A stretch of DNA of 41,997 nucleotides, from IMG/VR virus record IMGVR_UViG_3300032323_000426, positions 1 to 41,997 of that record. The stretch is one strand, 5' to 3'. The notes under the pieces are model-generated. The model had not been told where the DNA came from. It saw only the letters and a list, made by a program, of their open reading frames with translations, and searched no databases. The translations under genes and the position numbers were made by a program. This document shows positions 13,913-39,027 of the stretch, piece after piece (the stretch's first letter is position 1; each line of letters begins with the position of its first letter). This DNA comes from a virus.

Positions 13913-14073
13913 TGCCGTTGTACGATTTCAAATGCGGTACTTGTAGTGAGGTTATAGAAACAAATGAAAACATACCACCAGTTTGTGGAACGTGTAGTGG
14001 AACTATGCAACGCATCTGGTCTTCTCCAGCAATTAAGTTTAATGCACCAGGCTTCTATTCAACAGGAGGATAA
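13912..14073 (+). CDS. FmdB-type zinc-ribbon protein
   Basis: 53 aa, starting in the upstream stop. MPLYDFKCGTC and PVCGTCSG form the ribbon, followed by MQRIWSSPAIKFNAPGFYSTGG, which is the typical end of FmdB-family regulatory zinc ribbons. In bacteria these are implicated in regulation; in phage the role is unknown. It directly precedes WhiB with TAATG overlap. Confidence 0.8.
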   Translation: MPLYDFKCGTCSEVIETNENIPPVCGTCSGTMQRIWSSPAIKFNAPGFYSTGG

Positions 14074-14339
14074 TGTATACATTCGGCGAAGAAGCAAACT
14101 GCAACGGTATAGATACAGAGTTGTTTTTCACAGACGAAAGCAAGACGTACAAAGAACTACCTTTATTAAAAAGAGTATGCGGTAATTGCACAGTCCAAGC
14201 CGAGTGTCTTGACTATGCCCTGCACCATGCGGTGCTAGGTTGGTGGGGTGGGACATCAGAAAAAACCCGCAGAGCGTTACAACAAAAACTTAATATCAGT
14301 CCAGAGCCAGTACTAATTACAGAAAAGTGGATAGCATAA
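14073..14339 (+). CDS. whiB: WhiB-family Fe-S transcription regulator
   Basis: 88 aa with the four conserved Cys (10, 36, 39, 45; CGNC motif CxxC then five residues to C) and the G-W-W-G-G turn (56-60), slightly changed from the usual G[VI]WGG. WhiB proteins bind a 4Fe-4S cluster and act with the host sigma factor; phage copies such as that of mycobacteriophage TM4 are known to interfere with host transcription. The family is confined to actinobacteria and their phages, so it identifies the host phylum. The C-terminal basic part (KTRRALQQK) may bind DNA. Confidence 0.92.
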   Translation: MYTFGEEANCNGIDTELFFTDESKTYKELPLLKRVCGNCTVQAECLDYALHHAVLGWWGGTSEKTRRALQQKLNISPEPVLITEKWIA

Positions 14340-15617: not shown

Positions 15618-15790
15618 TATTCATCGTCCTTTAGATTGCGTAGATTAAGTGTGACTGTCCAGATGACTAGACAAATCACGATTGCATAACCAACAACTGT
15701 CTTGGCAGAACCTTCAAGGACTACCCAAGCGACGAACATTCCAAGGAGTGTCCATAGTTGATTGGCAATATCTGATAGTAGTTTTTTCAT
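15617..15790 (-). CDS. Small two-helix membrane protein
   Basis: 57 aa, MKKLLSDIANQLWTLLG..., with two hydrophobic segments (LGMFVAWVVLEG; VVGYAIVICLVIWTVTL) and an acidic end (LKDDE). Both ends overlap neighbours by TAATG. It may be a second holin or an antiholin. No sequence family recognised. Confidence 0.7.
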   Translation of the reverse strand: MKKLLSDIANQLWTLLGMFVAWVVLEGSAKTVVGYAIVICLVIWTVTLNLRNLKDDE

Positions 15791-17145
15791 TATGGCTTTC
15801 TCCTATATGCTGCAGTCGCAGCAGCGCCTGCTGCTGCCTGTGTTGCTATACCACCTGCGATAATTGCAGATACGACTACGTCTTCTGCAGTCTCTCTTAC
15901 TTCTGGTGGAAGGTCCGCCCCTACATTTCCGATGGCTGCAAGTGCAGCACCTGGGTCTGTAAATAATTCTTGCAGCAATGCTGCTGGGTCTTGCAATAAA
16001 GCCACGGCGATTGCAACTTCTGCCGTTACTACTACCCCATTATCCAAAGTTACTGGTGTCTCAGGTGCTAAACTTTCTAGGTCTACGCTACCTACACTTG
16101 GGGGTTCATATGAAGTATCAATCGGAGATGCTGGCTCAGGTTCTACGGGTTGCTCTGTCTCGGTCACAAGAACTTCTTCAGTCTCTTCCTGAGAATCATC
16201 CTCAATTGGAATATCCTGTTCAATCTCTTCATCAACAGGTTGCTCAGGTTCTTCGACAGGCAACTGCTCTTCAACAATTTCTGGCTCTTCCACAATTTCA
16301 AGAGACTCTTCCACCACAACGGGCTCTTCTTCAACAACAGGTTCCTCTTCAACCACAGGCTCAGGTTCAACCACAGGTTCAGGCTCTGGAAGAGGCTGGG
16401 CAACAGGTTCAGGGACTGGTTGAGGCTGAGGCTCAGGTTGAGGTGCTGGCTGCGGAGCAGGTGCAGGAGTTGGTTCAGGTTCAGTTACCACAGGATGAGT
16501 GGGTACACTGGGTACAGATGGAGAAGGAGTAGGTTCAGATGGAACTGTATTTACTGATTGCGTTTCTACTGTTGGTGTCTCTACTGGCACTACAGGGGTT
16601 ACTGTTTCGACAGTGGCGGTCTGCGTTTCGTGAGCGTCATGAGCAGGTGCTGTTGTTGTGTCAGGAAGTGGTGCGGTTGCAGTCGGAGAATCAACGACTG
16701 CAGTTGGAGAATCAACGACTGAAGGCGAAGGAGACGGAGATGGTTCGGGTTCGGCTTCAGGAGTTGGGCTAGGTGATGGAGTTGGTTCAGGGGTTGGTGT
16801 TGGGCTTGGCGTTGGTTCTGGTAATACGCCGTTATAATAACCCAAGGTAGTATCACTAAGATTATCACTAATGTAAGTTGTGAATCCTTGTGCGTATCCG
16901 CCTTCACAGAACAACCTAGGAATATATCCTCTGCCATTAAAGAACTGAGCACTGTTGTCCCATCCGATTTGAAAGGACTGTTGAGTTTCGTCTTGCCTAG
17001 CACACACAACAGTAGCGTTAGCCTGTGCTGCTTGTGAAACAGGACTCCAAAAGAATGAAGTGCCTAATACAATAAAAAATACTGCGTACTTACTTAGTCT
17101 TACTCTCGCAGAGTAGGATGTAAATCTGGTCAACGCGTTGTTCAA
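15790..17145 (-). CDS. Secreted Pro/Glu-rich protein with C-terminal anchor
   Basis: 451 aa from a TTG start. Residues 1-42 look like a signal peptide (SKYAVFFIVLGTSFFWSPVSQAAQA). A small domain of about 65 aa with two Cys (48, 80) follows. Residues 108 to about 345 are a Pro/Thr/Ser then Pro/Glu/Val repeat spacer (PTPSPTPTPEP; EPVVEEEPVVEEEP). The C-terminus is hydrophobic and ends in AYRRKP, like a membrane stop. The protein would span the host wall, anchored in the membrane. This is unusual beside lysis genes: superinfection exclusion, a wall-spanning lysis factor or a virion spike are options. It overlaps the upstream gene by 56 bases. Confidence 0.75.
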   Translation of the reverse strand: MNNALTRFTSYSARVRLSKYAVFFIVLGTSFFWSPVSQAAQANATVVCARQDETQQSFQIGWDNSAQFFNGRGYIPRLFCEGGYAQGFTTYISDNLSDTTLGYYNGVLPEPTPSPTPTPEPTPSPSPTPEAEPEPSPSPSPSVVDSPTAVVDSPTATAPLPDTTTAPAHDAHETQTATVETVTPVVPVETPTVETQSVNTVPSEPTPSPSVPSVPTHPVVTEPEPTPAPAPQPAPQPEPQPQPVPEPVAQPLPEPEPVVEPEPVVEEEPVVEEEPVVVEESLEIVEEPEIVEEQLPVEEPEQPVDEEIEQDIPIEDDSQEETEEVLVTETEQPVEPEPASPIDTSYEPPSVGSVDLESLAPETPVTLDNGVVVTAEVAIAVALLQDPAALLQELFTDPGAALAAIGNVGADLPPEVRETAEDVVVSAIIAGGIATQAAAGAAATAAYRRKP

Positions 17146-17314
17146 CTCGGTCCAATCGTTCGGTGTTGATATTAACTGCGTCCCTCATACTGCTACCTGA
17201 ATTTGGTTTTAACTCACTCAGATAGTGTTTAACTAACCAGCGGACGGCGGCAGAAAAGCCGCCTAGTAAAGTCATTATGGCTACAGCAAAGCCAGCCCAT
17301 TCTGTGGGTGTCAT
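17090..17314 (-). CDS. Small membrane protein with coiled-coil end (DUF2746-like)
   Basis: 74 aa. TPTEWAGFAVAIMTLLGGFSAAVRWLV forms one membrane helix, then a short linker and a predicted coiled coil (NINTERLDRVEQRVDQIYILL). This topology is found in actinophage DUF2746-type proteins near lysis genes. A holin or holin-partner role is plausible. It starts one base into the stop of the tail protein gene. Confidence 0.7.
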   Translation of the reverse strand: MTPTEWAGFAVAIMTLLGGFSAAVRWLVKHYLSELKPNSGSSMRDAVNINTERLDRVEQRVDQIYILLCESKTK

Positions 17315-19326
17315 TATACTGTCCTCACCACAATCGTTAAGATTCCACCATAACCATTGAACTTATCTGGTGGGGTTGTTCTCTTAAATGAAATGCCTTC
17401 GATTTGTACTTGGCGTAGTTCTTGTGTATTTAAATCCTGCCACAATACTACGTCTCCGCTTTCTTCAATTGCTTCTAACTGCAGCAGGCGCTCATGCGCT
17501 CTACCTTTATAGCCAGTAGTCACACCATTGCGGTCTGTCTCTGTGTCAAAGCAATAAACAGGGAACTGAATGATTCGCTGACGTGGCGTAGCAATAGTAG
17601 CCTTAGCCTGATAGCCTTTGAATATGGGACCAGTTGAAGTTGTAGTTGCATCACGCACAAACAAAAACTTGTAGGCAATATATTCACGGGCAGTAGATGG
17701 CTGGTTAGTTCCTACCTCAACCTCTGGTACTTGTGAGTCGTATGTAATGTGGTCATACTCTGTGCCATCAATATCAATAGTAAGCAAACCTAGTGACCCT
17801 TTAGAGAAATCACCGCGCCCGATAAGGCGCTTAAAGTTCTTAGGTTCTAGTGTTCCATAACGGATATTACCTGTAGTTAGGTAGCCAGTTGGACGCAAGA
17901 CAGTTGCTGATTCAAGATAGATAGCACCATCAGTTGTCTCATGCGCTGTGCAGAAAGCAAGACGATTAGTTGTTCCTATAAATGCAACACCAGTTGTGTA
18001 ATGCTCTGCAGTTTGAGTTACCTGCAAATCATTTGCATATGCCATGCGTAATGTACTAAGTTCATTATCTAAATCAACACGAATAAGACCAGCATCTAGT
18101 GTGCCAATGCCTGAGGCTGCCCATACAAATCGGTCACGAGCAGCAAAGTCATAGACTGGCTGGCTTGTTTCTACGATAAGTGGACCATAATCTAACGACC
18201 CATCTTGGTCGTTGACTAGCGCAACGCGCATACCCTTGCTTGTGCCAATGCACATATATCCTAAATAGTAATATATCTTTTCAATTATTTCACCTGCTGG
18301 TAATTCAGCAGCAACTATGGCTGATGTGAGTGTCGGCATGACACCAGAGGTATTTAGTGTATACTTCTGTATAGTAGAATAGATACCAGAATGTCCCGCC
18401 GTGTAAATGGCGGGTCCTGAAGCAGCGACAGATGTGTAGTGATAGTTAGTATTAGGATTTATATATACAGGAGTTGGCAGTGATGTAGCAGTTGTTGCTA
18501 ATTCATAAACCCTATTATTAACACACAATATGATGCGGTCTTTAATAAACTCCATAGTGGCATATTGAATTTCAATGTCACCACTTTGAAACATCTGTGT
18601 AACATCACCTGTTGCGGATGGGTTAGATGAACCAGTAGTTGAGTCACCACTTAATGGCTTCTTAAACATAGTAAGGCGTTGGTTTCCGCCTGATGTTTTA
18701 TTAGTTACCCAGTAAGCATTGACTCCGTCATCACAAATAGCGTGTACTTTGCGGTCAGTGCCAGAAATGTAATCAATAAAGTGGGTTACAGTTCCGTTAG
18801 CAGAAATCTTGTCTACGTCAAACTCATCATGTAGTAAAACACCATCTGTGCTGCTCCATTGAATTGACCGAACATGTTGGTTAACATGTTGATGGTCTGT
18901 ACCTACAATTGGACCAGTAGTTTGATGTGTATTAACTACATCTTTAAGTAAAGTTACTTGTCCCTTAGTCCAAACATCTACACCTTGACTGTCGGCAAAA
19001 CGATACTGTCCTGCTTCATCATTAGTGGCAGGGTCAAAAAACTTAATGCCAGTGCCACCATGAAAAGACATTTGTGAGCGTAGCCACCAACCAGTAAGCG
19101 ACTGCTCACCAGGCTCATTGCCATTATCAAACTGGTCTTTACGAAATGGTGCAGTCTGGCGAGTAGCCTCATCTTTATCTGAGATTGCAGATATAAACGG
19201 CATACCACCAACGGCTGTATCGTAAGAGATATTAGTGTTCTGCCAGACAGCATCTGTAGAAACAATACCAATGTCAGTTGTTAAGTCGTAAACTCCACCA
19301 CCGTCTGTTATGTCGCGACCAGCCAC
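17314..19326 (-). CDS. Minor tail protein
   Basis: 670 aa from a GTG start with AAGGAG upstream. Its N-terminal third has the string PGEQSLTGWWLRSQMSFHGG leading into GIKFFDP, which I associate with minor tail proteins of actinophages. The rest consists of short beta-rich units (IRLxxAxxDRFVWAASGIGT, IYTAGHSGIYSTI) suggesting a propeller. The C-terminus (FKRTTPPDKFNGYGGILTIVVRTV) may be an assembly domain. Likely part of the tail tip or hub, contacting the fibre proteins coded upstream. Confidence 0.75.
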   Translation of the reverse strand: MAGRDITDGGGVYDLTTDIGIVSTDAVWQNTNISYDTAVGGMPFISAISDKDEATRQTAPFRKDQFDNGNEPGEQSLTGWWLRSQMSFHGGTGIKFFDPATNDEAGQYRFADSQGVDVWTKGQVTLLKDVVNTHQTTGPIVGTDHQHVNQHVRSIQWSSTDGVLLHDEFDVDKISANGTVTHFIDYISGTDRKVHAICDDGVNAYWVTNKTSGGNQRLTMFKKPLSGDSTTGSSNPSATGDVTQMFQSGDIEIQYATMEFIKDRIILCVNNRVYELATTATSLPTPVYINPNTNYHYTSVAASGPAIYTAGHSGIYSTIQKYTLNTSGVMPTLTSAIVAAELPAGEIIEKIYYYLGYMCIGTSKGMRVALVNDQDGSLDYGPLIVETSQPVYDFAARDRFVWAASGIGTLDAGLIRVDLDNELSTLRMAYANDLQVTQTAEHYTTGVAFIGTTNRLAFCTAHETTDGAIYLESATVLRPTGYLTTGNIRYGTLEPKNFKRLIGRGDFSKGSLGLLTIDIDGTEYDHITYDSQVPEVEVGTNQPSTAREYIAYKFLFVRDATTTSTGPIFKGYQAKATIATPRQRIIQFPVYCFDTETDRNGVTTGYKGRAHERLLQLEAIEESGDVVLWQDLNTQELRQVQIEGISFKRTTPPDKFNGYGGILTIVVRTV

Positions 19327-19632: not shown

Positions 19633-20157
19633 TTATTGTTTGACTATGCCGTATAAATAGGCAGTTGAGTTTTGAACAAAATTAGTACCTGAGCCTGAAT
19701 ACTCTGAAATAGTAATACTAGTAATTGCTGCTGTATTAGACCATAATCCAGTATAAATTGCTGCATAACTTGTTGTAGCATTATTTTCGGTAACAGAATC
19801 AGATGAAAAAGATTTGTTATTAGAGCCAGCATAGTTTGGTATATAAGTTTCAAAGTTGTTAAAAGTGCTTGCTGTATAAGTGCTAGATTGAGCAAAAGCA
19901 ATACGAGCAAATGTTTCGGATGAACCACCATAAGTTCCCACCGACGCGCCATCACCAAGCAAAAGTTTTCGTGAATAACCACTACTTGAACCGTTGAATC
20001 TTATTCCTATCTGACTGCCATCGGCGCTTCCATTTTGTCTAGTTGATAGTTTTAAGACCAAATCTGTGTAAGTGCTAGGGATGCTTGTAAAATCAATCGT
20101 GTTTGCGCCACCTACTCCAACGGTTACTGCGCTAATAAGTGTCATTGTATTTGGCAT
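19633..20157 (-). CDS. Tail-tip-like protein, type A, copy 2
   Basis: 174 aa of beta-rich sequence with the family signature FTSIPSTYTDLVLKL near residue 25 and a C-terminal AYLYGI. Type A features are FNGSSSGYSRKLLLGD, YIPNYAGSNNKSFSSDS and WSNTAAITSI. Its closest relative in the genome is the type A protein at 21300-21779. These proteins presumably decorate the tail and may bind the host surface. Last gene of the second C-B-A cassette. Confidence 0.7.
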   Translation of the reverse strand: MPNTMTLISAVTVGVGGANTIDFTSIPSTYTDLVLKLSTRQNGSADGSQIGIRFNGSSSGYSRKLLLGDGASVGTYGGSSETFARIAFAQSSTYTASTFNNFETYIPNYAGSNNKSFSSDSVTENNATTSYAAIYTGLWSNTAAITSITISEYSGSGTNFVQNSTAYLYGIVKQ

Positions 20158-20166
20158 AGTTGCTCC

Positions 20167-20667
20167 TTAAGCAGCAGTGATTCCGTATAGTGTAAAGGTA
20201 GAGCCAGCAGAAAATGGGTCCCCAAGGCTAAATGCTCTAATTTGATTAATTGCTGAAGTGCTATTCCAAATACCTGCTACCATAACAGGTGCACCTGCAG
20301 GGTCATTATATCTATTAAGCATAGTCTTTTTTGTAGTTGTACTTGAATAACTTTGCAAACTCATATTCCACATCATTTGTATATTAGATGTTCCTGAATA
20401 GCCTGCATAAATTCCATTGTCGTTAGTACCGTTTGTTGATAAAGCGCTTGTACCATTACCATACGTATAAGTATAAGAGTAATTTGAGCCTGTGTCTATT
20501 GACCCATTACCAACTCGAATTTTTAGTGAGTTATTAGCAGGTAATCCAAAATTTGCAACAAGAATTAAATCGGTATAAGTGCTAGGAATTGAAGTAAAGG
20601 TTTGAGATGCTGATGTACCATCGGCGGTAATCGTTGCAATAGTTGAGTATGTGTTTCCTGCTGGCAT
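20167..20667 (-). CDS. Tail-tip-like protein, type B, copy 2
   Basis: 166 aa. It shares FTSIPSTYTDLILV with its neighbours. Type B features are DTGSNYSYTYTYGNG, SYSSTTTKKTMLNRYN and the end AGSTFTLYGI. The counterpart is 21788-22294. All-beta and Ser/Thr/Asn-rich, typical of receptor-binding or virion surface proteins. Middle gene of the second cassette. Confidence 0.7.
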   Translation of the reverse strand: MPAGNTYSTIATITADGTSASQTFTSIPSTYTDLILVANFGLPANNSLKIRVGNGSIDTGSNYSYTYTYGNGTSALSTNGTNDNGIYAGYSGTSNIQMMWNMSLQSYSSTTTKKTMLNRYNDPAGAPVMVAGIWNSTSAINQIRAFSLGDPFSAGSTFTLYGITAA

Positions 20668-20670
20668 TTG

Positions 20671-21291
20671 TTACCCCTTAATTCCGTATAGTGCGAACGA
20701 CCCTGAAGTAAAGTTTCCACCTAATTCAGTTGATAATGTAATAGAAGAAATTGCATCTGCGCTATTCATCCAAACACCAGAAGACAAAGTTGTTGCGCCA
20801 TACACGGTCCCAGATAAAGCAGCAGTTGGATGAACTCCAGCCAAGGTTCTTATGGTTTTATTTTTATTGGCAGAAGTGTAGTCAAGAATGTCGCTTACAA
20901 ATATTCCTGACGTGTCTGTTCCTGCAATACTTGTACCAATCTGACCAATAAGCATATACGAAGATGGGGTTCCAGGTGTAAATGAGTAAGGACTACCACC
21001 ATCGCCACCTAGTTGGTGGGTTGCGTAGTTATTACCCGAATCGGAATTTAAGCGTATACGTACTTGCTCAACCGAATAATTAGTTCGATTTGTTCTGCCT
21101 ATTGCTCTAATTTGTAGATGCTTATAAGTGGATGGAATAGAACTAAATGTAACGGTTGATTGACTTCCTGTAAGTGTTACAGTAGAAATAGAATCATACG
21201 CAGTAGGCGAATAGACTGCACTCTGGTCCCAGACCTTGCTTCGCTTAACGCCAGTAGAGATACTGGCTGTTCGTAGACTTCGGATTCCCAT
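20671..21291 (-). CDS. Tail-tip-like protein, type C, copy 2
   Basis: 206 aa, longest of the set because of an extra N-terminal segment (MGIRSLRTASISTGVKRSKVWDQSAVYS). It shares FSSIPSTYKHLQIRA, DYTSANKNKTIRTL and FALYGIKG with the type C protein at 22294-22872. The N-terminal extension may be the virion-binding part. First gene of the second cassette. Confidence 0.7.
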   Translation of the reverse strand: MGIRSLRTASISTGVKRSKVWDQSAVYSPTAYDSISTVTLTGSQSTVTFSSIPSTYKHLQIRAIGRTNRTNYSVEQVRIRLNSDSGNNYATHQLGGDGGSPYSFTPGTPSSYMLIGQIGTSIAGTDTSGIFVSDILDYTSANKNKTIRTLAGVHPTAALSGTVYGATTLSSGVWMNSADAISSITLSTELGGNFTSGSFALYGIKG

Positions 21292-21299
21292 AGTGTGTC

Positions 21300-21779
21300 C
21301 TAACTCTTGCTAATTCCATAAAGGAATGCTGATGAATTTGCGACCCATTCGCCGCCTTGACCAGTGTCAAATGAAATTGTTGTAATAGCAGATGTTACGT
21401 TTGAGGTTCCACACCCCATAGCAAAGTATTGGTCTCCAAAACTTTCAATTGAAACGCTCTTATAACTGCTGCTTGTATAGTTAGGTATATAAATAGTATT
21501 GCTGGAAAATGTATTTGCCACCCCATTGGCAGCAGGTACGTCATAAGTAGTTATGTTTACCCCGCCACCAAGATAATCGCCGAAATGGTTTCTATCACTA
21601 TAACCGCTAGAAGCGCCATTAAATGTCATTTGAAGAACGCGTCTATCATATGCGTTACTTCTCCTTAATGAAAGGTCAATGCGCAAATCGGTGTATGTTG
21701 ATGGAATAGAGGAAAAAGTTATTGTTGACGCATTACCGCTAAGTACAACCTGACCAATGCATTCATATTTTTTTGGCAT
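21300..21779 (-). CDS. Tail-tip-like protein, type A, copy 1
   Basis: 159 aa with FSSIPSTYTDLRIDLSL, FNGASSGYSDRNHFGD, YIPNYTSSSYKSVSIES and a C-terminal AFLYGI. It pairs with 19633-20157 by these motifs. Ser/Asn-rich beta structure. Third gene of the first cassette, with a GGGGATAAT spacer carrying the ribosome site. Confidence 0.7.
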   Translation of the reverse strand: MPKKYECIGQVVLSGNASTITFSSIPSTYTDLRIDLSLRRSNAYDRRVLQMTFNGASSGYSDRNHFGDYLGGGVNITTYDVPAANGVANTFSSNTIYIPNYTSSSYKSVSIESFGDQYFAMGCGTSNVTSAITTISFDTGQGGEWVANSSAFLYGISKS

Positions 21780-21787
21780 ATTATCCC

Positions 21788-22294
21788 CTAGAGTATTCCG
21801 TAAAGAGTAAAGGTTGAACCAGAAGAGTAATTTCCAGTATTAAGAAAACAAGTTACGGAAGTAATTGCAGATGCTGAGCGGTAAAGACCAGCACCTTCAA
21901 AAATTTCCTGTACCGCTCCATTAGCGTTAGCGCTAAGATTTACTCTAGAAATTGTTGTTTTATGATTTGTAGTACTAGAATAGTTTTGAATATGAGTAAT
22001 AATATTTGAGTTACCCATAAAAGAACTTGTTCCGTGTAAAATAAATGTTGCATTAGATTGTCTTCCAACAGTCATTGCGTTATAATAGTATTGATAAGTA
22101 GTGCTATAATTACTTCCAGTATCAGCATTAAGCCTTAGATTTGAATAAGCATACGTTGCAGTCGGGTCTCCTGGCAGTGACTGCACCAATACTAAATCTT
22201 TGTAGGTATTAGGAATACTTGAAAAAGTAACTGTTCCAGTAGACGTTCCACTAACTGTGTTAGTTGCAATAGGTTCATATGTTGAAGTAGGCAT
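21788..22294 (-). CDS. Tail-tip-like protein, type B, copy 1
   Basis: 168 aa with FSSIPNTYKDLVLV, DTGSNYSTTYQYYYN, YSSTTNHKTTISRVN and SGSTFTLYGI. It pairs with 20167-20667. Its start overlaps the upstream type C stop by TAATG, so these two are coupled. Middle gene of the first cassette. Confidence 0.7.
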   Translation of the reverse strand: MPTSTYEPIATNTVSGTSTGTVTFSSIPNTYKDLVLVQSLPGDPTATYAYSNLRLNADTGSNYSTTYQYYYNAMTVGRQSNATFILHGTSSFMGNSNIITHIQNYSSTTNHKTTISRVNLSANANGAVQEIFEGAGLYRSASAITSVTCFLNTGNYSSGSTFTLYGIL

Positions 22295-22872
22295 TATGAT
22301 GTTCCCTTAATTCCGTAAATTGCAAAAGTTGAGTTGGCGCCAAAAGAACCATATAGACCGACTTCAGTAATAGCACCCGTTTGATAAAAACTTCCTACGT
22401 GAAAACCAGTATTGCCAGAACCGTTTCTATCAGTTCCCCACAAGGCACGAATGTTTTTGTTTTTAGCGGCACTAGTATAATCAACATAGTCAATTATTGA
22501 TGAGAGTATACCGTCACCTTCTATTAAAGAAGTATAGGTATACCCAGCCTCTCCAGCGCCAAAATTCATACTTGAACCAGTTGAACCATTTGTATATGTT
22601 CCCCTGGAAGTGTAATTTGCTGCTGTTGTATTACCATTAATTCTTGTAATAAGCCACCAGGCTCCAGTGCCATTCATAGTTGCTCGAACTTGAAGATGCT
22701 TATATGTTTGGGGAATACTTGAAAAAAGTACTGTATTTGTAGATGAACTTAAAGTAGTTCTTGTTATAAGTTCATAGTCAGAACTAGATACTGCGCTGGT
22801 TCCATCCCATAGGTCTTGAAACTTTGGCAATCCTTGTGCCAAAGTAGATGTCTTAAATCTACTGATTGCCAT
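22294..22872 (-). CDS. Tail-tip-like protein, type C, copy 1
   Basis: 192 aa with the extended N-terminus MAISRFKTSTLAQGLPKF leading into a WDGTSAVSSSDYEL stretch, FSSIPQTYKHLQVRA, DYTSAAKNKNIRAL and FAIYGIKG. It pairs with 20671-21291. AGGAGGATACA is a strong ribosome site. First gene of the first cassette. Confidence 0.7.
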   Translation of the reverse strand: MAISRFKTSTLAQGLPKFQDLWDGTSAVSSSDYELITRTTLSSSTNTVLFSSIPQTYKHLQVRATMNGTGAWWLITRINGNTTAANYTSRGTYTNGSTGSSMNFGAGEAGYTYTSLIEGDGILSSIIDYVDYTSAAKNKNIRALWGTDRNGSGNTGFHVGSFYQTGAITEVGLYGSFGANSTFAIYGIKGTS

Positions 22873-22884
22873 TGTATCCTCCTA

Positions 22885-23214
22885 TTAAGAAATTTCTGAG
22901 CCGTATGCGTGGAATGAAAGTGTTGCAGATGAAGCGTAGACTGTTACTACGTCAGTTGTTGCAAGTGTCAATCCAAGTGTAATTGCTGTTGTATCGTTTG
23001 CTGCAAGTGCTACGTCATAAGCAACATAGTGAACTGCTGCTAGGGTTGCTCCTGCTGGGCGTACTGCAATACGGAATGAAGCAGCAGATGCTGCCTGATT
23101 ACATACTGTAATAGTTGATACTACGGTTGATGTTGCAGATGGTACTGTGTATAGAGTTGTTGCGGTTGTAGCACTTGGGTTGGACTGCGCTAGCACCTTG
23201 TATGTTGTTGGCAT
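22885..23214 (-). CDS. Small beta-rich virion protein
   Basis: 109 aa: YKVLAQSNPSATTATTLYTV, STVVSTITVCNQAASAASFRIAV, and VVTVYASSATLSFHAYG. Ala/Thr/Val-rich strands like those of phage fibre-associated or decoration proteins. It sits between the fibre and the six paralogues. AGGAGAAATAA ribosome site. Confidence 0.65.
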   Translation of the reverse strand: MPTTYKVLAQSNPSATTATTLYTVPSATSTVVSTITVCNQAASAASFRIAVRPAGATLAAVHYVAYDVALAANDTTAITLGLTLATTDVVTVYASSATLSFHAYGSEIS

Positions 23215-23227
23215 TTATTTCTCCTAG

Positions 23228-23554
23228 TTACATTCCACCCAGTAAGAATACTGTTGGTGTTGGGTCGGTTGTGATTGTTGCCCACGAAGCGGATGTTCCG
23301 TTTGTGGTTAGATATTTACCAGAGTTACCTGTCTGGCTAGGTAGAGCATCTACAGTTGCCCAAGAAGTAGCACTACCATTGGTAGTCAGGTACTTTCCTG
23401 AGTTGCTTGTTTGAGATGGAACTACATATACAGATGCTGTATCAAGTGCTACTGAAACAGTACCGCTTGTTCCTCCACCTGTTAATCCTGTTGAAGCCGT
23501 AACTCCTAAAATATCTGCTGCGTGGTTATCGGCATTTGTTCTTGCTTTTGACAT
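23228..23554 (-). CDS. Fibre-like protein with two tandem repeats
   Basis: 108 aa. Residues about 45-95 contain two copies of PSQT-NSGKYLTTNG-SWAT, a repeat type found in phage tail fibres. The start (ADILGVTASTGLTGGGTSG) is also fibre-like. TAATG overlap with the large fibre gene suggests the two work together. It may be a detached piece of a longer fibre. Confidence 0.65.
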   Translation of the reverse strand: MSKARTNADNHAADILGVTASTGLTGGGTSGTVSVALDTASVYVVPSQTSNSGKYLTTNGSATSWATVDALPSQTGNSGKYLTTNGTSASWATITTDPTPTVFLLGGM

Positions 23555-25608
23555 TATGCTCCCATCATCATGAAGATGTCAGATAGTGCTGCTCCGCCAG
23601 AAGCGGCAGGTGCAGCCCATTTAACACCTGTAGTTTGAGTTGAATCTGCGGTAAGTACGTATGTGTCAGTTCCTACAGCAAGTCGTCCCACAGTGTTATC
23701 TGCCGTTGCAACCATTAAGTCACCCTTGGCATCTACAAGTGTTGTTGTAAGAGCATTAGCAACGCTGTATGGAGTCCATGAAAGAACTTCTACAACGTCG
23801 CTTGCAGCCAAGGCTGGCGACAATCCAGTGATTGATGTTCCAGTTGATGCTGTGTAGTCTTGTCCACGAACAAGAAGTACGCCGTTAAGGTATACCTGCT
23901 CATAACCAACTGTGTATGCAAGGCTTACAGATGAGTCATCTGCTCCATTAAGAGTTGTTTCTCCACCAGCAACTGTCTTGCGCCAGCGTGTTGATGTGGC
24001 TGCTGATGTAATATTTTCCCATGCAGATGTAGTAGCGTCCCATACTTGCATAGCCCCAGTTGTAGTGTTCCAGTAAAGAGCACCAGCAACTAAAGCGTTT
24101 CCATCGTTATCTACTGACGGAGCGCTTGACTTAGCGCCAAGGTAGCGGTCATCAAATGAGTCATATGAAGCGGCTGCAGCAGCAGCAGCAGCGGATGCGG
24201 TAGCAGCATCTGCAGCAACTGTTGAGGCGTAAGAATCTACATAAGCCTTAGTTGCAGCATGCAAGTTAGAACTTGGTGCTCCAGACAGGGTTAATGGACC
24301 CGTCATTGTTGAGCCAGCCTTTAACACTACTGTGTCTGAGAAGTTTGCTGTATCAGCCAATGCTGCAGCAATCTCATTAAGAGTATCTAAAGTAGATGGT
24401 GCTCCATCAATAAGGTTAGCGATAGATGTATCTACGTAAGCCTTAGTAGAAGCGTCTGCGTTACTTGTAGGCGTAGCAAGGTTTGTAATCTTCTGGCTAT
24501 TCATTGAGAATGAACCAGTAGGTGCAGCAAGGTCAGTTACCTTAGAGGTGCGAACCTGTGTGTCAAAGTCTGAAATTGTTGATGCTGTCTGTGTTCCAGT
24601 GTGATTAGCGCGAGCCAATGGGTCTGTAGCCAATTTGGTAAGGTCAATTGCTGCGCCCGATGCAATGTCAGCATTTACGATGGTTGAGTTAGCAATCATT
24701 GCTGATGTAACAGTACCTGTATCAGCCTGTGTTACTGCTGTTCCAGTTACCTTAGTTGGTGCAATTGAACCAGCAAGCATTGTGTTTGTAACTGTACCTG
24801 TATCGGCAGCAGTAATTGCTGTTCCTGAAATCTTTGTAGCAGCAATTGCTGCGGATGCATTAATATCAGCATTGACAATTGTACCATCTAGAATCTTAGC
24901 AGATGTTACTGCTCCGTCTGCTAAGTCACCAGCAACAATAGTAGCATCTGCAATTTTAGCAGAAGTAATGGCGCTATCAACAATCTTTGCTGTAGTAATT
25001 GATAGGTCATCAATTTTGACTGTGCCTACAGCACCATCGGCAATCTTACCACTTGTGATAGCAGAGTCTGCAATATCACCAGAAGCAATTGTAAGGTCAG
25101 CAATCTTTGCAGATGTAATAGCACTGTCAGCAATCTTAGCGGTTGTGACGTTAGCATCTGTAATCTTGGCTGTTGTTACTGCATTGTTTTGCAACATAGC
25201 CGTAGTGATTACGTTTGTTTCTGTATCTAAAACTATGTTAGCAAGGGTAATACCGTGTGCTGTGGTTGTATTCTCAATGTGAGTATTGGCTTCGCGGTAG
25301 TCGCGACCAATAGCCATATGGCGAACCTCTGCACCAGCAGAGTGAGCCTGTGCAGATGACCCATCAATGTTTCTTGCGATTGATAGAATGTTTCCAGATA
25401 CTGGATTACCATCAGCCTTATATATATCTACAATTTCTTCAAGGGCTGTATCTGGGTCAATAACAACCGTGAAGGTTTCTCCAGCAGCAATCGTTACTCC
25501 ACCAAGCAAGGCTGTAGCAGATACGACTGTGATAGAACTACTACCAGAGTTAATAGAAGAAGCAAGCGTTGTCTTCTGCGAACGGGATGAGTATTTACGG
25601 GTTGTCAT
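23554..25608 (-). CDS. Tail fibre with TTAKI-type repeats
   Basis: 684 aa. The N-terminal 115 residues (TRKYSSRSQKTTLASSIN to GRDYREANTHIENTT) are probably the virion attachment domain. Residues about 140-335 are a run of near-decapeptide repeats of the form TAKIxDxxITS, a likely extended beta-rod. The middle has repeated TKAYVD boundaries, and the C-terminal part (YLNGVLLVRGQDYTASTG) resembles receptor-binding tips of other phage fibres. It is the major candidate for the host-recognition shaft. Confidence 0.8.
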   Translation of the reverse strand: MTTRKYSSRSQKTTLASSINSGSSSITVVSATALLGGVTIAAGETFTVVIDPDTALEEIVDIYKADGNPVSGNILSIARNIDGSSAQAHSAGAEVRHMAIGRDYREANTHIENTTTAHGITLANIVLDTETNVITTAMLQNNAVTTAKITDANVTTAKIADSAITSAKIADLTIASGDIADSAITSGKIADGAVGTVKIDDLSITTAKIVDSAITSAKIADATIVAGDLADGAVTSAKILDGTIVNADINASAAIAATKISGTAITAADTGTVTNTMLAGSIAPTKVTGTAVTQADTGTVTSAMIANSTIVNADIASGAAIDLTKLATDPLARANHTGTQTASTISDFDTQVRTSKVTDLAAPTGSFSMNSQKITNLATPTSNADASTKAYVDTSIANLIDGAPSTLDTLNEIAAALADTANFSDTVVLKAGSTMTGPLTLSGAPSSNLHAATKAYVDSYASTVAADAATASAAAAAAAASYDSFDDRYLGAKSSAPSVDNDGNALVAGALYWNTTTGAMQVWDATTSAWENITSAATSTRWRKTVAGGETTLNGADDSSVSLAYTVGYEQVYLNGVLLVRGQDYTASTGTSITGLSPALAASDVVEVLSWTPYSVANALTTTLVDAKGDLMVATADNTVGRLAVGTDTYVLTADSTQTTGVKWAAPAASGGAALSDIFMMMGA

Positions 25609-32282: not shown

Positions 32283-33862
32283 TAACCGCGACCCCACATT
32301 CTACCAATTGTATCTAAGAAGTCAGAAGAAATTTCACGCGCTTCATCTGTAAAGCGCCACATAGGATTACCTTGCATGTCTTTGTTAAACTCTGCTATTG
32401 ACTTACCTGATGCAACTGCATCCATTACGTCTTTATCCTTTGTAGGTGCTTTAACTACAACACCAAGTTTATTAAACTTAGCACGAGCGTATGTATTAGC
32501 AATGTCAAGAACAGTTCCACCTGCATCAATATGGTCTGCAAGACCAGGGTGCATTTTCTTAGCAATAAGACGTAGGCGTTCCTGCTGCTTTTCAAGATAG
32601 TTCTTTTGACCAATGCCAAGAGTTACTTGCTTTAGGGCTTCTGCTGCTGTCATGTCAATGCCATAATCAGAAGCCAATTCTTGTAGTGTTGCTATATCCA
32701 TAGACACTTGGCTACCCTTTGAGGACGATAGCAAGGCATCTACATCTGTATTCTTAAGGCGCTTACGCGCTACTCTTGCAGCAATAACCATGCGCTCAGC
32801 ATCTGTCATTACATCGCCAGTAGTTGTGCCATCAACACTTACCATTGTCTGGCTTTTTTCTTCTGCGTTAAGAATCTTATAGTACTCTTCGTACTCTTCA
32901 TCCGTTGCTGCTGAACCAGTAAGGTCCATTAAGTATTCATCAATTTGCTGGCGAGCATCACCACGTGTAGATAGGTTGCGGTATACTGTTCTGCCGCCAG
33001 AACCAGAGTCTCTTTTTGTTTTTAAGAAATCTTCTGCACTAATTGGAGCGCCAAGACCATACTTAGTATCAGAAACCATCTTAACACTTCTTGCAAGAAG
33101 CATATCATCAAGACCAGTATACCAAGTTCCCTTAGCAATATCAGATTCTTTTATATAATTAGAATCAATTAACTGTTGTTGAAGTTGCTTAAGTTTACCT
33201 GGCTCTGAATATCCTTTCAGAAACTGTAAGCGTCCTTCATCATAATCTACATAAAACTTTGGTGTTGCTGTGCCATCCTTTATTACATCGACAAAAAAAC
33301 CTTCTCCGCCTTTTGGTCCCTGTACTAAACCTCTTGGCGAAAAGGCATACTCATTAAATAAGCCACCTTCTTCTTCTTGTTGTTCACCAGTGGCTACTTT
33401 TTTAGAACGACCAAGTTTGTTTTCAAGTTCTGCAATACGCTCATCTGCTGCCTTAACATCTGCATTGCCTCGTGATGGAGATAGAGCAATAGCGCGTTCT
33501 CTTTCAGAACGTGCTTTATTTAGTTCTTTTTCTGTATTTTTAATAGACTCTCTGGCAGAAGATTCTTCTCTAAGTTGTTCTAGTTCTTTGCGAAGTCTAT
33601 TTTTTTCGTTCTGAGCAGTCTGATATTCCTGTGCTGCCGTATCGTATATTGCTTTAACGCGAAGATACTCTTCTTCAAATTTTTTTGAGTCCTTGGAGTT
33701 GTTATTTTTGCTCTCATCATATCGTCGCTTTGCATTAAGGTATCCAGCCTCAAGACCACCGCGACCAGCAACCCCATTTAACCTATCATATGTTTCACGA
33801 GTACGCTTTGAGGCAATGCCAAACTCACGTTCCTTAGCATCTAGTTTTGAATTCTTTGCCAT
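32282..33862 (-). CDS. Coiled-coil candidate internal virion protein
   Basis: 526 aa. Residues 40-150 are a long charged coiled coil (EYQTAQNEKNRLRKELEQLRE, NTEKELNKARSERERAIA). The middle is mixed and the end helical. No named family. It overlaps both neighbours in the series 1721-526-409, so the three are made together and probably act together in the virion. Confidence 0.65.
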   Translation of the reverse strand: MAKNSKLDAKEREFGIASKRTRETYDRLNGVAGRGGLEAGYLNAKRRYDESKNNNSKDSKKFEEEYLRVKAIYDTAAQEYQTAQNEKNRLRKELEQLREESSARESIKNTEKELNKARSERERAIALSPSRGNADVKAADERIAELENKLGRSKKVATGEQQEEEGGLFNEYAFSPRGLVQGPKGGEGFFVDVIKDGTATPKFYVDYDEGRLQFLKGYSEPGKLKQLQQQLIDSNYIKESDIAKGTWYTGLDDMLLARSVKMVSDTKYGLGAPISAEDFLKTKRDSGSGGRTVYRNLSTRGDARQQIDEYLMDLTGSAATDEEYEEYYKILNAEEKSQTMVSVDGTTTGDVMTDAERMVIAARVARKRLKNTDVDALLSSSKGSQVSMDIATLQELASDYGIDMTAAEALKQVTLGIGQKNYLEKQQERLRLIAKKMHPGLADHIDAGGTVLDIANTYARAKFNKLGVVVKAPTKDKDVMDAVASGKSIAEFNKDMQGNPMWRFTDEAREISSDFLDTIGRMWGRG

Positions 33863-36800
33863 TACCTTAACTCCTTAGTTGCAAAATAAGAATTACGTGA
33901 ATAGAAGTTAAGTATTGACCTAAAGATTGCTCGATTAGCCTCTGTCACGTAAGCATCTCCAATCATTAGTTCATTTAGTTGTGCTTCTATTTGTCTCTTG
34001 CGTTCAGCCTTCAAATCGGTTGCGTTAATAATATTTGCTATCTGTGGGTCACGTGCAAAATTAATATAACTACGCATTAAACGAATAGCAATGCTCATAC
34101 GCTGACGAGTAGGTGTTTCAATTGGTGTATTTGGATTACCAATCATTTCTTCTACTTTACCAAGCATTACTTCTTCATCACCAATATTGTTGCCCTCGCC
34201 AATAAGTGCGGGATTTAATAGTGGATTAGAAGCCTTTAACGCATTACGTGCTGCAGTTGCTTCTCTAATAATTTGCGCACGCGCTCCTGGGTCTGACTCA
34301 TTGTCAAGTGCAAAGCGTTGTTCTTTGGCAATCTGATAATAAGTATTCTTATCTTCAGCAACCATAAGGTCTTCATAATACTTTTCAAGAGTCTTGGTTT
34401 CTATAAGACCAGCAGCCTTTAGCCAGTTATATGTAGCAGCATTAAACTCACCCACTTGTGGGGCAAAGATATATGCTGATTCTCCATATGTAGAGATTAA
34501 TCCCTTGTTTTTAATAGCCCAACCCTTAAGTGCTTCGGTGTTTTTAATAACTACCTTAGAACCCTTTTCAGTTGGAGATACTGTATAGATTAACTTGCCT
34601 GGGTACTTGCCAATAAACGTAGATAAAGCCAGTTCATATGGGTCATCTACATCGCCTACATTCATCTTAGATATGCTATTGAGAATATCAAAGAACTCAC
34701 CACGTAAACTATTAATACCAGTTGTCTTAATGTAATCTGGAATGCCCTTGCTGTCCTGTGCGCTAGGCGCTACTGGAGAAATTAAACCAAGGATATTACG
34801 TAGTGCAATTACGTTATGAGCAGAGATACGAATATTCTTTAGGTATTCGTTTTTCTCTTCTTCTGTAGCATTAGGGTCTAGGTAGCGACCATTTGCTGCA
34901 TTGTAAGCCATAGCCTGCTGTGCAGCAGTAACTTCTTGACGGTTCTTTTCATCGAATGGCAGAATAGCCCAGATACGCTGTAGGCTTGAAGGAACAATAG
35001 CCCTTCTAATATCCATGTTATCACCAAGATTACCCAGTGCAAATGTATCTAGTTTTTCTGCTGCTTGCTCTAGTGTTGGGTCAATCTTCTTACCGATAAA
35101 TGGCAATGAACCAGGAACTGAGCCAAGAATGTTTTTGAACGCAATTACAGACAAACCAGAGATAGGTCCAGATAGTGTAGGAACACCAGCATCCTGTGAA
35201 AATGATGGGTTTACCATGCGCAACTTAAGAGTTAACTCATTAAACTGTGGCTGTGAGTACCCACTATTACCAGTAAGAACACGCATTGTTGTATCTGTTG
35301 CTCTGAAAAGAATATCATCCATAGGCATCATTACATATGGGTCATTGTTCTGGTCATAATGGATACCACCAGTAGCATCTAATCCAACATGCGCTAAGCG
35401 CATACGGTATAAAACTCTAGGAGATACATCTTTCATTCTATAAATACGGCGATAGAAGTCTTCGGTTGCACGATAGTAACGACCTACTGTGCGAACAGAA
35501 TATGCAAAGTTAGAACGAATTGCTGGGTTATCTGCATACTTTAGGATTGTATCTGCAGCCTCACGAGTAGCAAGTTCTGTAAATCGCTTCTCTGCAATAT
35601 CATCAGCCAAAGCCTTAAGGCGTGCCTTTTCAGCGTTGGATAGTGTCTCTTTGAATACTCCACCACCCATATCGTTATACTGCTGGCGGGCAAACTCACG
35701 CTCTAGTGAAGCATACTTCTTACGTAGACCTGTATATGCAACCATAACTGCTGGCTGGCGGTAGATACCGCTAACCTGACGGTCCATCATATCCATTGCA
35801 GTATTACCCCAACGGCGGAATAGGTTTTCAGTATCAGCATAGTTACCAACACCAAGTTGTGTTGTTGTTTTACCAGTAATACGGAAGCCTTCTGATGCAT
35901 CAGCAAAATCATCTAGACTAATCCTTGCAACCGCTTGGTTCCAAGTAACCTTGCGATTTAAATCAGATGTCATATCTTTTAGATTCTTTTGAATTAAGTT
36001 CCATAGGTTTTCGTTAAAGTTATCTACACCACCGTTAAAGGTTTCAAACATATCAGTAAACATACGGCTTAGTTGAATACGAGTAATATCTGCATCTGTG
36101 CGTCCTTGTGAACGCAGGAATACTGTATTGGCACTGCCTTCTAGATATTCATCGGCAATCTTAGCCTGAAAGCCTGTTGGCTTTTCCCAAACATTTGATG
36201 AACCGTTAAACTTGTAGCCAAGAGAAAACATTGCATCGTCAAGTGCTGCTTCAAATACTTCTTTGCCGCTTTTTTCGTCAATAACCCCAGGTCTAAAGCC
36301 CTTGTATTGGAAAAATAATCTTGATGGATTAATAATTGTTTGTTTGTTAAACTTATATTTGTTTCCCACAAATTGTTTAACAAACTTTTCAAAATGAACT
36401 AGGACAGCCTCGCGCTCATTAAGCGTTGAAATGTCAATTTCCTTAGAAGCCTTATTAAGTTTAACATTCATGCTTTCGTATGCCAAAGTTAACTGTGAAG
36501 GTGTCAGTATTGCACGCTGAACGTCCTCGCCGTATACACCTGATAAACCGCTTCGACCAACAATAGAGTTGGCTGCAGAATACAAAGCCTCTGGCTGATG
36601 AATATACGCCTGTCGTAGATACTCAGCACCATCTTCGTCTATGTAACGGCTATACAATGACATAACTTCGTCAATAACCGCTTCGCGCTTTTCAATATTT
36701 GTCAAAAGTTCTGGGTCTGTTTTTAGTTCTCTAGCCTTAGCCTGAATAGCATTGACACGTGCCTCAATAGATAAGGCTTCTTCAGAGTTAATTCGAGTAC

Positions 36801-39027
36801 GCTCACCAATTACTTTAACGGCATTAACCTTAGCGCCTGTCTTATTAAGCACTTTTTGCAATCCAGAACGAATTGGACCAGTAGCATCTCTAGAACCCGT
36901 AAAGGTTCTGGTTACGTTTGACATTTTACGACCAGCACCTAGAGCAAATGCACGCAAATCACGTGATGGTGCAGTCAAAGCAAACATTGTTGCTTCGTCA
37001 ATTGCGGAACGAATACCCAAACGTGGGAACAAAGTTAAGATAGACCAAGCATCAACTATTTTTTTAGCCAATGCACCTTGAGTAGCACCACCTGCAGCAT
37101 AAATAATGTTGTTCTTTGATGCCTTCATGCTCCAAATCATGGAGCCAATCTCGTCATATGGTAATGAACCAACAGCCCAAGTAGATTGATATGGGTGAAT
37201 TGGACCAATACCATCTACATACAAGCCGTTTTCGTTTTGCCTTACAGCACCATCTGGTATAAACTTTGCATGTTCTGGGTTAATCTTAGAATCTATTTTA
37301 TTTGCAAAGCCAGATGTTGAGCCATACTTAAGTAGCAAAGTCTTTTCAATTAGTTCAGTGCCACGTGTTTCGCCACCAAGACCCATTGAGTACATTGTTG
37401 CAGCATCTAGGTTGCGCAAAATAACATATTGTTCATCAGCACTTGACGCAAGGAACTTAACAGTTAGCGCTTCAGCCATATCACGTGGAAGCAAGATACG
37501 AGCACGTGCAGTAAAGTTTGCTGCAGTCTCAACCGCATTGCGACCAGTGCGAACTTCTGCTCCCGCTGGAGAACGAGCAATCATTTGCCCAACTTTTTTC
37601 CAGCGTTGAATCTGCTTATTGGCTTCTAGAACAACACCAAAGTCTGCTTTATCTGGTGAAGTAATACGGCGTACAGCATCTTCTGGATTAAGTAAAGATT
37701 TAATAATAGGCTCTAAAGCCTTGTCAACTTCATCTGCGTTGCGTCCCGCACCAGCAAATGTAGTTTTTGATGTGCTGTTAAATACACCATCAAGATACTT
37801 GGAAAAGTTTTCACCAAACAAGCGACGAGTCTTTGCAACAACTACGCCATTACGCATATAGGTAATACCGTCAACTCGACCAGAAAGCATTAGGTGAAGA
37901 TTAGAAGCGTCTTCAAAGTACTTCTTGGCTTTTTCAGCATTAAATACTTTTCCGCGTGCTAGTGTTTCCACAGCGGCACGATTGGCATAGCCAGGAAAGT
38001 TTGTAGAAATTTCTCTAAAGGCTTCCGCTTTAGCAGCACCAGTTGCATCGTTATATTTTTTAATTGCTGGACCAAGGTCCTGCTCCCACAACTTAGTAAG
38101 TTTTGGCTCAGTTCTAAATGCAGTTTCTACAGCACGCTCAATAGGGATACCGCTATCAACGGCACGAAGAACGCTATTCTTAATACGCTCACCCTTAGTA
38201 ATGCCCTTGCTAAGACCACCAGTTAACCATGTAAGTGGGTCAATAGCAATTTGATAAATAAAGTCAATAGTTCCAGAAATACGACTATCGCTATCGCTTG
38301 CATAGTCGTATGTCATTCCGCCACCTCTAGGTGGCTTAGTTCCTAGCATACGAACAATATCTCGACCAGGACTAATCTGTGCAAACTTTACATTGTCAAG
38401 TACTTCTTTAAAGTTTTTTGAATCATCATATGCTTTTTGAATTGAAGCAAGAACTTTTTCATCAACTTTGCCGTATGACTCTAGAATTTCTCCAGGTGTC
38501 TTACCATCAAGAAGTCCCTGTGCTACGAACACATCTGCATCACCAAAGTATTTCTTGGCTTTATCAAGTGCCGCAACATCATACATGTCTGTGCCATTCC
38601 AAGCATCAGTCCATGTCTTTCCAGAAAACAAATCTTCACCTTGGGCTACCTGACGAGCAACCTTATAGGGTGTATTAATTAAACGATTGTATTGTCCACC
38701 AAGTTTAAACAAACCAATAAGTGGGCTAGCAGCAACCTTTAAGGCTCCTCCTAAAACTCCCTGTACTCTATCGGCAGCAGTAGGCATTGGTTGCAGATAG
38801 TCTGCATCTTTAAACAAAAACTTTAGTTGCTCTTGTGCTTTACCATTGAGTCTGTCAAATTCTTTACGCGCCATATCGTTATCTAGTTTTGCTAACTGGC
38901 GGTGCTTTTTAATTGCATAACTCATTTGCTCTACTTGATTAATCTGAGCAGGTTCTAGGTTTGCAGTTCTTGCAGCAGTATAAATATTAGGAGATACTTC
39001 AGCGACAACTGGCTTTAAATAGCGCAT
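33862..39027 (-). CDS. Giant 1721-aa candidate internal virion / DNA-ejection protein
   Basis: The largest gene, an eighth of the genome. Mostly helical, with semi-hydrophobic stretches early (RVQGVLGGALKVAASPLIGLFKL; FIYQIAIDPLTWLTGGL) and in the middle (AWSILTLFPRLGIRSAIDEATMF). I recognise no catalytic domain; a transglycosylase signature is not apparent. Position between portal and scaffold differs from tape-measure genes, which lie after the tail tube. The working idea is a portal-associated ejection protein comparable with T7 gp16. A minor capsid or unusual tape measure is the alternative. Confidence 0.65.
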   Translation of the reverse strand: MRYLKPVVAEVSPNIYTAARTANLEPAQINQVEQMSYAIKKHRQLAKLDNDMARKEFDRLNGKAQEQLKFLFKDADYLQPMPTAADRVQGVLGGALKVAASPLIGLFKLGGQYNRLINTPYKVARQVAQGEDLFSGKTWTDAWNGTDMYDVAALDKAKKYFGDADVFVAQGLLDGKTPGEILESYGKVDEKVLASIQKAYDDSKNFKEVLDNVKFAQISPGRDIVRMLGTKPPRGGGMTYDYASDSDSRISGTIDFIYQIAIDPLTWLTGGLSKGITKGERIKNSVLRAVDSGIPIERAVETAFRTEPKLTKLWEQDLGPAIKKYNDATGAAKAEAFREISTNFPGYANRAAVETLARGKVFNAEKAKKYFEDASNLHLMLSGRVDGITYMRNGVVVAKTRRLFGENFSKYLDGVFNSTSKTTFAGAGRNADEVDKALEPIIKSLLNPEDAVRRITSPDKADFGVVLEANKQIQRWKKVGQMIARSPAGAEVRTGRNAVETAANFTARARILLPRDMAEALTVKFLASSADEQYVILRNLDAATMYSMGLGGETRGTELIEKTLLLKYGSTSGFANKIDSKINPEHAKFIPDGAVRQNENGLYVDGIGPIHPYQSTWAVGSLPYDEIGSMIWSMKASKNNIIYAAGGATQGALAKKIVDAWSILTLFPRLGIRSAIDEATMFALTAPSRDLRAFALGAGRKMSNVTRTFTGSRDATGPIRSGLQKVLNKTGAKVNAVKVIGERTRINSEEALSIEARVNAIQAKARELKTDPELLTNIEKREAVIDEVMSLYSRYIDEDGAEYLRQAYIHQPEALYSAANSIVGRSGLSGVYGEDVQRAILTPSQLTLAYESMNVKLNKASKEIDISTLNEREAVLVHFEKFVKQFVGNKYKFNKQTIINPSRLFFQYKGFRPGVIDEKSGKEVFEAALDDAMFSLGYKFNGSSNVWEKPTGFQAKIADEYLEGSANTVFLRSQGRTDADITRIQLSRMFTDMFETFNGGVDNFNENLWNLIQKNLKDMTSDLNRKVTWNQAVARISLDDFADASEGFRITGKTTTQLGVGNYADTENLFRRWGNTAMDMMDRQVSGIYRQPAVMVAYTGLRKKYASLEREFARQQYNDMGGGVFKETLSNAEKARLKALADDIAEKRFTELATREAADTILKYADNPAIRSNFAYSVRTVGRYYRATEDFYRRIYRMKDVSPRVLYRMRLAHVGLDATGGIHYDQNNDPYVMMPMDDILFRATDTTMRVLTGNSGYSQPQFNELTLKLRMVNPSFSQDAGVPTLSGPISGLSVIAFKNILGSVPGSLPFIGKKIDPTLEQAAEKLDTFALGNLGDNMDIRRAIVPSSLQRIWAILPFDEKNRQEVTAAQQAMAYNAANGRYLDPNATEEEKNEYLKNIRISAHNVIALRNILGLISPVAPSAQDSKGIPDYIKTTGINSLRGEFFDILNSISKMNVGDVDDPYELALSTFIGKYPGKLIYTVSPTEKGSKVVIKNTEALKGWAIKNKGLISTYGESAYIFAPQVGEFNAATYNWLKAAGLIETKTLEKYYEDLMVAEDKNTYYQIAKEQRFALDNESDPGARAQIIREATAARNALKASNPLLNPALIGEGNNIGDEEVMLGKVEEMIGNPNTPIETPTRQRMSIAIRLMRSYINFARDPQIANIINATDLKAERKRQIEAQLNELMIGDAYVTEANRAIFRSILNFYSRNSYFATKELR

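Follow-up and report, generated by a model that had tools for sequence, protein, structure and literature searches.

A C-B-A triad of paralogous beta-sandwich proteins as a candidate three-slot host-recognition module of actinobacterial phages

Two copies of a three-gene series, C-B-A, lie side by side in an actinophage-like virus record; the three classes keep their order across related phages, while the individual genes, or slots, are replaced one at a time. We regard the series as what would be an old three-slot adhesin module, mainly of actinobacterial phages, and probably as a hypervariable host-recognition module in which C, B, and A form one C-anchored heterotrimeric head with slots exchangeable by recombination. 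Under this proposal the three paralogous proteins, predicted to be beta-sandwiches of a lectin- or jelly-roll-like kind, would most likely assemble 1:1:1; the N-terminal peptide of C would plug the head into the tail; the outer loops would touch the host surface and bind the receptor; and specificity would change via homologous recombination at conserved, slot-specific first and last codons, heads being exchanged slot by slot with the order kept. The phage analysed here would carry two such heads, each with an anchor of its own type. Membership of C, B, and A in a single heterotrimer is, in our estimation, likely rather than certain. The stricter version, an obligate heterotrimeric receptor-binding head whose slots are independently exchangeable and whose specificity is drawn combinatorially from three allele pools (six with two triads), we put at an even chance.

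The stretch of DNA analysed here (the window) is a virus record of 41,997 bases with actinophage-like character, in which the terminase, portal, and major head genes lie on the minus strand; the phage probably infects freshwater actinobacteria. The six triad genes occupy positions 19633-22872 of the minus strand with near-zero spacing between them, and sit between the gene of a 684-aa tail fibre and an endolysin gene:

23554..25608, minus strand: 684-aa tail fibre protein with SAKIAD-type repeats, upstream neighbour (phrog_38058, E 4e-68)
22885..23214, minus strand: 109-aa protein directly upstream of triad 1 (weak PHROG match, tail fibre proteins)
22294..22872, minus strand: C1, C-class head of triad 1, 192 aa, N-terminal peptide MAISRFKTSTLAQGLPKFQDLWDG (triad-1 type)
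21788..22294, minus strand: B1, B-class head of triad 1, 168 aa
21300..21779, minus strand: A1, A-class head of triad 1, 159 aa
20671..21291, minus strand: C2, C-class head of triad 2, 206 aa, N-terminal peptide MGIRSLRTASISTGVKRSKVWDQSA (triad-2 type)
20167..20667, minus strand: B2, B-class head of triad 2, 166 aa
19633..20157, minus strand: A2, A-class head of triad 2, 174 aa
19384..19617, minus strand: 77-aa protein directly downstream of triad 2
17314..19326, minus strand: 670-aa protein of unknown function, conserved downstream neighbour (phrog_11667, E 8e-137)
14073-14339, plus strand: WhiB-family transcription factor, an actinophage marker (PF02467)

An earlier, sequence-only reading of this DNA had described the six open reading frames and their shared motifs, and both are present, the frames at the positions given and all on the minus strand, the motifs with minor departures: FSSIPSTY occurs unaltered in C2 and A1 and reads FTSIPSTY in A2 and B2, FSSIPNTY in B1, and FSSIPQTY in C1; DYTSANKNKTIR is exact in C2 only, the C1 version being DYTSAAKNKNIR; and LYGI or IYGI followed by a few residues forms the C-terminus of all six proteins. 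Its division into three types, repeated in the order C-B-A and pairing across the two cassettes, is borne out by BLASTP, in which the reciprocal best pairs are A2-A1 (39% identity, E 1e-25), B2-B1 (41%, E 9e-22), and C2-C1 (36%, E 9e-22), with scores between non-partners of at most 50 bits. A tree of 278 domains from 86 loci agrees, gathering A into one clade of 87/87 (support 0.96), B into a clade of 92/94 (0.85), and C into one of 95/97 (0.74), the misplaced members all coming from a single divergent locus, L083; neighbours within a cassette do not group together, and the triad pattern therefore stands. Pfam and PHROG searches gave a convincing match for none of the six proteins, and almost none for the members of the A and C alignments; a sub-cut-off Pfam score of B1 to FGAR-AT (22.7 bits against the 27 needed) and one weak PHROG match of unknown function were dismissed.

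The distribution of the triad was followed in five scans of 2.9 million viral contigs, each listing up to 80 loci, some of which share a contig. Each of the three classes was used as bait, so that the C-B-A order is not the product of a single bait, and the 243 related loci listed were read with class HMMs built from 33-35 members each. Exactly CBA was found at 210 and CBACBA at 12, together 222/243, the best class HMM exceeding the second best by a median of 99 bits; one triad is thus usual among relatives and two are occasional. The other loci are mostly cut by contig ends, some carry an extra weak or distant domain, and there remain L083, whose classes are ambiguous, and a Streptomyces phage. 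The triad is thus a general module rather than a local oddity. In cellular genomes, a first scan gave no match and a second one contig, in an actinobacterium MAG (L247).

The slots of the module are replaced individually. Among pairs of loci whose flanks are alike in DNA, all three heads are less than 60% identical in 175 of 211. Among 173 distinct triads, 20 pairs are more than 70% identical in one slot and less than 52% in another, and only 3 pairs exceed 65% in all three, these being window triad 1 and its counterparts in the related loci L081 and L082. The pattern can be followed base by base in L101 and L220, which are 90% identical in DNA until about 130 bases into C, differ in the middle of C, are similar again over a stretch comprising the last 30 bases of C, all of B, and the first 35 bases of A, then differ within A, and are alike once more from the last 45 bases of A onward. 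Across 19 close pairs whose flanks are alike on both sides, identity at four-fold synonymous positions reaches 0.85 and 0.72 over the last ten codons and 0.41 mid-gene, where unrelated pairs show 0.34; the ends of the genes therefore belong to the genome backbone while the middles are replaced. The breakpoints lie in the first and last codons of each triad gene, and the ends of the genes resemble one another more within a slot than across slots, which would keep the C-B-A order during homologous recombination. The target of a diversity-generating retroelement would be expected to vary at adenines, in company with a template repeat and a reverse transcriptase; the variation observed is the replacement of whole cassettes, and a general scan of 40 window proteins showed no reverse transcriptase.

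Linkage between slots is weak: for the nearest neighbour of a triad by one slot, the median rank by another slot is 41-65 of 132, as against 27-36 between halves of one protein. Mantel tests between slots gave 0.03-0.09, inside the null, with a reduced alphabet, and 0.20-0.28, above the null, with full identity; as the outcome depends on the measure, slot independence is strong but not complete. Inter-slot covariation, considered as proof of contact, did exceed shuffles but was due to lineage subtypes in which all slots match, and none was left in the main group of 133 triads from which these subtypes had been removed. One such subtype (L024, L048, L060, L071, and similar loci) has matching unusual motifs in all three slots, among them SYAGST in B and NKP and SGSSFYLYGI in A. 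Slots seem, from these alignments, to mix within subtypes and not between them. The sequence-only reading had suggested a combinatorial receptor-binding set; slots do reassort between phages, and a role in host recognition is likely. The two triads may, as that reading also raised, give two host specificities. Because linkage is weak, partners need not match, and a heterotrimer would have to possess a generic interface.

The anatomy of the domains suggests how such a head might be oriented. The median number of residues before the IP.TY motif is 46 in C and 22 in both B and A, a difference of which over-long ORF starts explain part. In L072 and L069 an fn3 domain lies N-terminal to a C domain. 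B and/or A end, in some phages, in a Gly_rich_2 domain of about 270 residues (PF21722; L036:1583-4252, L043:3538-6240, and L084:7495-8820), and in L136, L143, L151, L225, L236, and L239 B and/or A likewise have a long C-terminal extension; among the loci with such extensions none was seen on C. Among the PHROG matches of the fused Gly_rich_2 and fn3 domains are families of tail fibre, of tail fibre assembly, and of minor tail proteins. Because the N-terminus of C is longer, fn3 precedes C, and Gly_rich_2 occurs on B and A only, the data fit an arrangement in which C would lie at the attachment end and B and A would extend distally.

Structure prediction took advantage of the fact that C2, B2, and A2 share a reading frame that TAA stops alone interrupt. 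Reading TAA as Gly yields a 552-residue in-silico single-chain trimer, a modelling device and not a chain that we propose the phage to make. The fused alignment was made from C-B pairs and full read-throughs, single-domain rows having been left out, as MAFFT placed all of them on the A domain; of the 45 rows of AlphaFold2 input, 7 cover all three domains and the rest C-B, so that only 7 cover A. The tethered chain was predicted with a pLDDT of 83.9 and a pTM of 0.83, with the same 12 strands in each domain, and only the first 30 residues of C and the junctions fell below pLDDT 50; A2 modelled alone reached 89. The common fold anticipated for the three classes is thus predicted as one 12-strand beta-sandwich, and the pTM indicates that the relative placement of the domains is also predicted confidently. 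The model supports a specific C-B-A assembly, short of proof because the domains are tethered and were modelled only as one C-B-A chain.

The best PDB matches of the fold, at Z 6-8 with none above 8, are GH32 C-terminal domains, galectins, ERGIC-53, and TNF-like trimers such as Chlamydia Pgp3 and BclA, and may reflect only a common strand arrangement. C1q is a heterotrimer of three paralogous chains; single-chain C1q entries were absent among the structure matches listed, and neither the six window proteins nor the C-class alignment members gave any Pfam match above cut-off, C1q or TNF-like families included. In a viral structure library the best match, a protein of 391 residues, aligned over two of the domains with a TM of 0.63 by target length, and Foldseek matches to porins and fatty acid synthase were set aside for low probability and low TM.

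Most known receptor-binding heads of phages are homotrimers, and the foremost alternative takes the classes as three independent homotrimeric adhesins (A3, B3, C3), displayed separately with receptors of their own, the operon being merely conserved. This reading, which we consider a serious though clearly less probable one, sits well with the almost independent exchange of slots and with the main group being free of residual covariation, but it would lead one to expect single losses or duplications, whereas the three genes co-occur and doubling proceeds by whole triads. A and B, being without the longer N-terminus of C, would need another route of attachment, and the read-through chain packs at its high pTM. 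In the Streptomyces phage, one tail-region protein terminates in a C-like domain that stands alone, from which it follows that a C-type domain can work without B and A. That protein, Intolerant gp29 (L091:5443-6633), is a larger protein near tail genes and a possible single-gene ancestor state of the triad; an apparent double C domain in it proved to be one C-terminal domain split into two matches. The hetero-complex that had been suggested from the sequence is thus favoured by several lines, among them triads kept whole, the longer N-terminus of C, and the predicted packing of C2-B2-A2, and we retain the C-anchored heterotrimer as the preferred reading.

The origin of the second triad bears on a further alternative, a recent duplication of one triad within the lineage of the window phage followed by fast divergence, as the sequence-only reading had supposed. 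The pairing of A1 with A2, B1 with B2, and C1 with C2 would suit such an event, as would the single triad of the close relative L081, which has a major head protein 89% identical to that of the window and a triad 1 that is 81-86% identical over shared regions. In L081 the 77-aa gene directly follows A1; in the window the same gene follows triad 2. Farther along, L081 has other genes, including that of a 321-aa protein weakly similar to Gly_rich_2. L082, however, carries two triads, the first 76-82% identical to that of the window and the second only 44-51%, and the closest relatives of C2, B2, and A2 of the window are spread over three phages, findings that contradict the duplication. Several two-triad relatives, moreover, share both C anchors while their heads differ: over the first 24 residues of C, mean identity is 0.65 within triad 1, 0.54 within triad 2, and 0.31 between them, and the heads are equally dissimilar throughout (0.42-0.45). 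The N-terminal peptide of C is fixed by triad position. Since relatives with two triads retain the arrangement together with the C anchors while heads are replaced slot-wise, the present two triads are better explained, as far as such comparisons reach, by assembly from different donors than by the drift of copies, and recent duplication strikes us as very improbable. The sole locus whose two triads group with each other in slot trees is L083 (L083:3386-6670), a divergent pair that is perhaps, judging by those trees, a true local triad duplication.

That the proteins are no adhesins at all, being capsid or tail decoration proteins that vary for some other cause, is scarcely credible, for although beta-sandwich folds occur in decoration proteins too and the tail location is itself a deduction, tail-fibre genes adjoin the triads, the natural Gly_rich_2 and fn3 fusions match tail families, and high allele turnover among otherwise alike phages is typical of host recognition.

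Each part of the proposed C-anchored three-slot head has a precedent. The Planktophila phages LanE43-AprE7 and -AprF5 have a reported hypervariable host-recognition island (PMC10202952). E7 has a tail fibre gene, then two other genes, then C, B, and A (191, 169, and 169 aa); in E7 and F5, isolated on one Ca. Planktophila landstejnensis strain, the triads share 96.5% DNA identity and have equal B and A HMM scores. From the gene order, we infer that the three reported proteins of the island are the C-B-A triad. The window shares its traits, having consecutive C, B, and A paralogues in order on one strand in a region hypervariable between otherwise alike phages; DUF2541 gave no Pfam match in window proteins. 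The main text of PMC10202952 does not describe three classes, a fixed order, slot-wise exchange, doubling, or a heterotrimer. Metaviromic islands of marine phages hold C1q-like putative receptor-binding proteins beside the tail fibre that under-recruit in metaviromes; like the window proteins they are small jelly-roll heads in that position, but they have a recognised C1q domain, where ours show only weak fold matches, and the available part of that source does not describe them as a triad (PMC3909814). In the virophage DSLV2, three consecutive related tail proteins, conserved in the lineage, co-purify 1:1:1 as one heterotrimeric complex proposed to be a receptor-binding fibre; this complex is likened to the T4 gp37 tip (collar and needle), whereas the window belongs to a tailed phage with predicted globular beta-sandwiches, and slot-wise exchange is not reported in the part of the source at hand (PMC12724248). 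Within the portion of the literature covered, in its main texts, we found no prior description of the three-slot grammar, slot-wise exchange, and doubling.

Ca. Nanopelagicales (acI) abound in freshwaters across the world, and predation by phages has been assumed to drive their microdiversity (PMC10202952). A reshuffling three-slot adhesin, if true, would give acI phages a multiplicative rather than additive variety of host recognition, and would be a rare case among tailed phages of a receptor-binding head in which three different chains take the place of a homotrimer. As two cultured phages and their host are available, the heterotrimer idea is directly testable; the rule of finding C-B-A and reading the middles would let candidate host-range determinants be drawn from metagenomes.

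Two further proteins of the window deserve mention. Its largest gene (33862-39027, minus strand) encodes a 1721-aa protein without a PHROG match at E 0.001, and a 451-aa protein rich in Pro/Glu/Val repeats (15790-17145, minus strand) has a middle that differs in L081 and L082, its N-terminus being kept in both and its C-terminus in L082; the 109-aa protein upstream of triad 1 is 76-87% identical to its counterparts in the same two loci.
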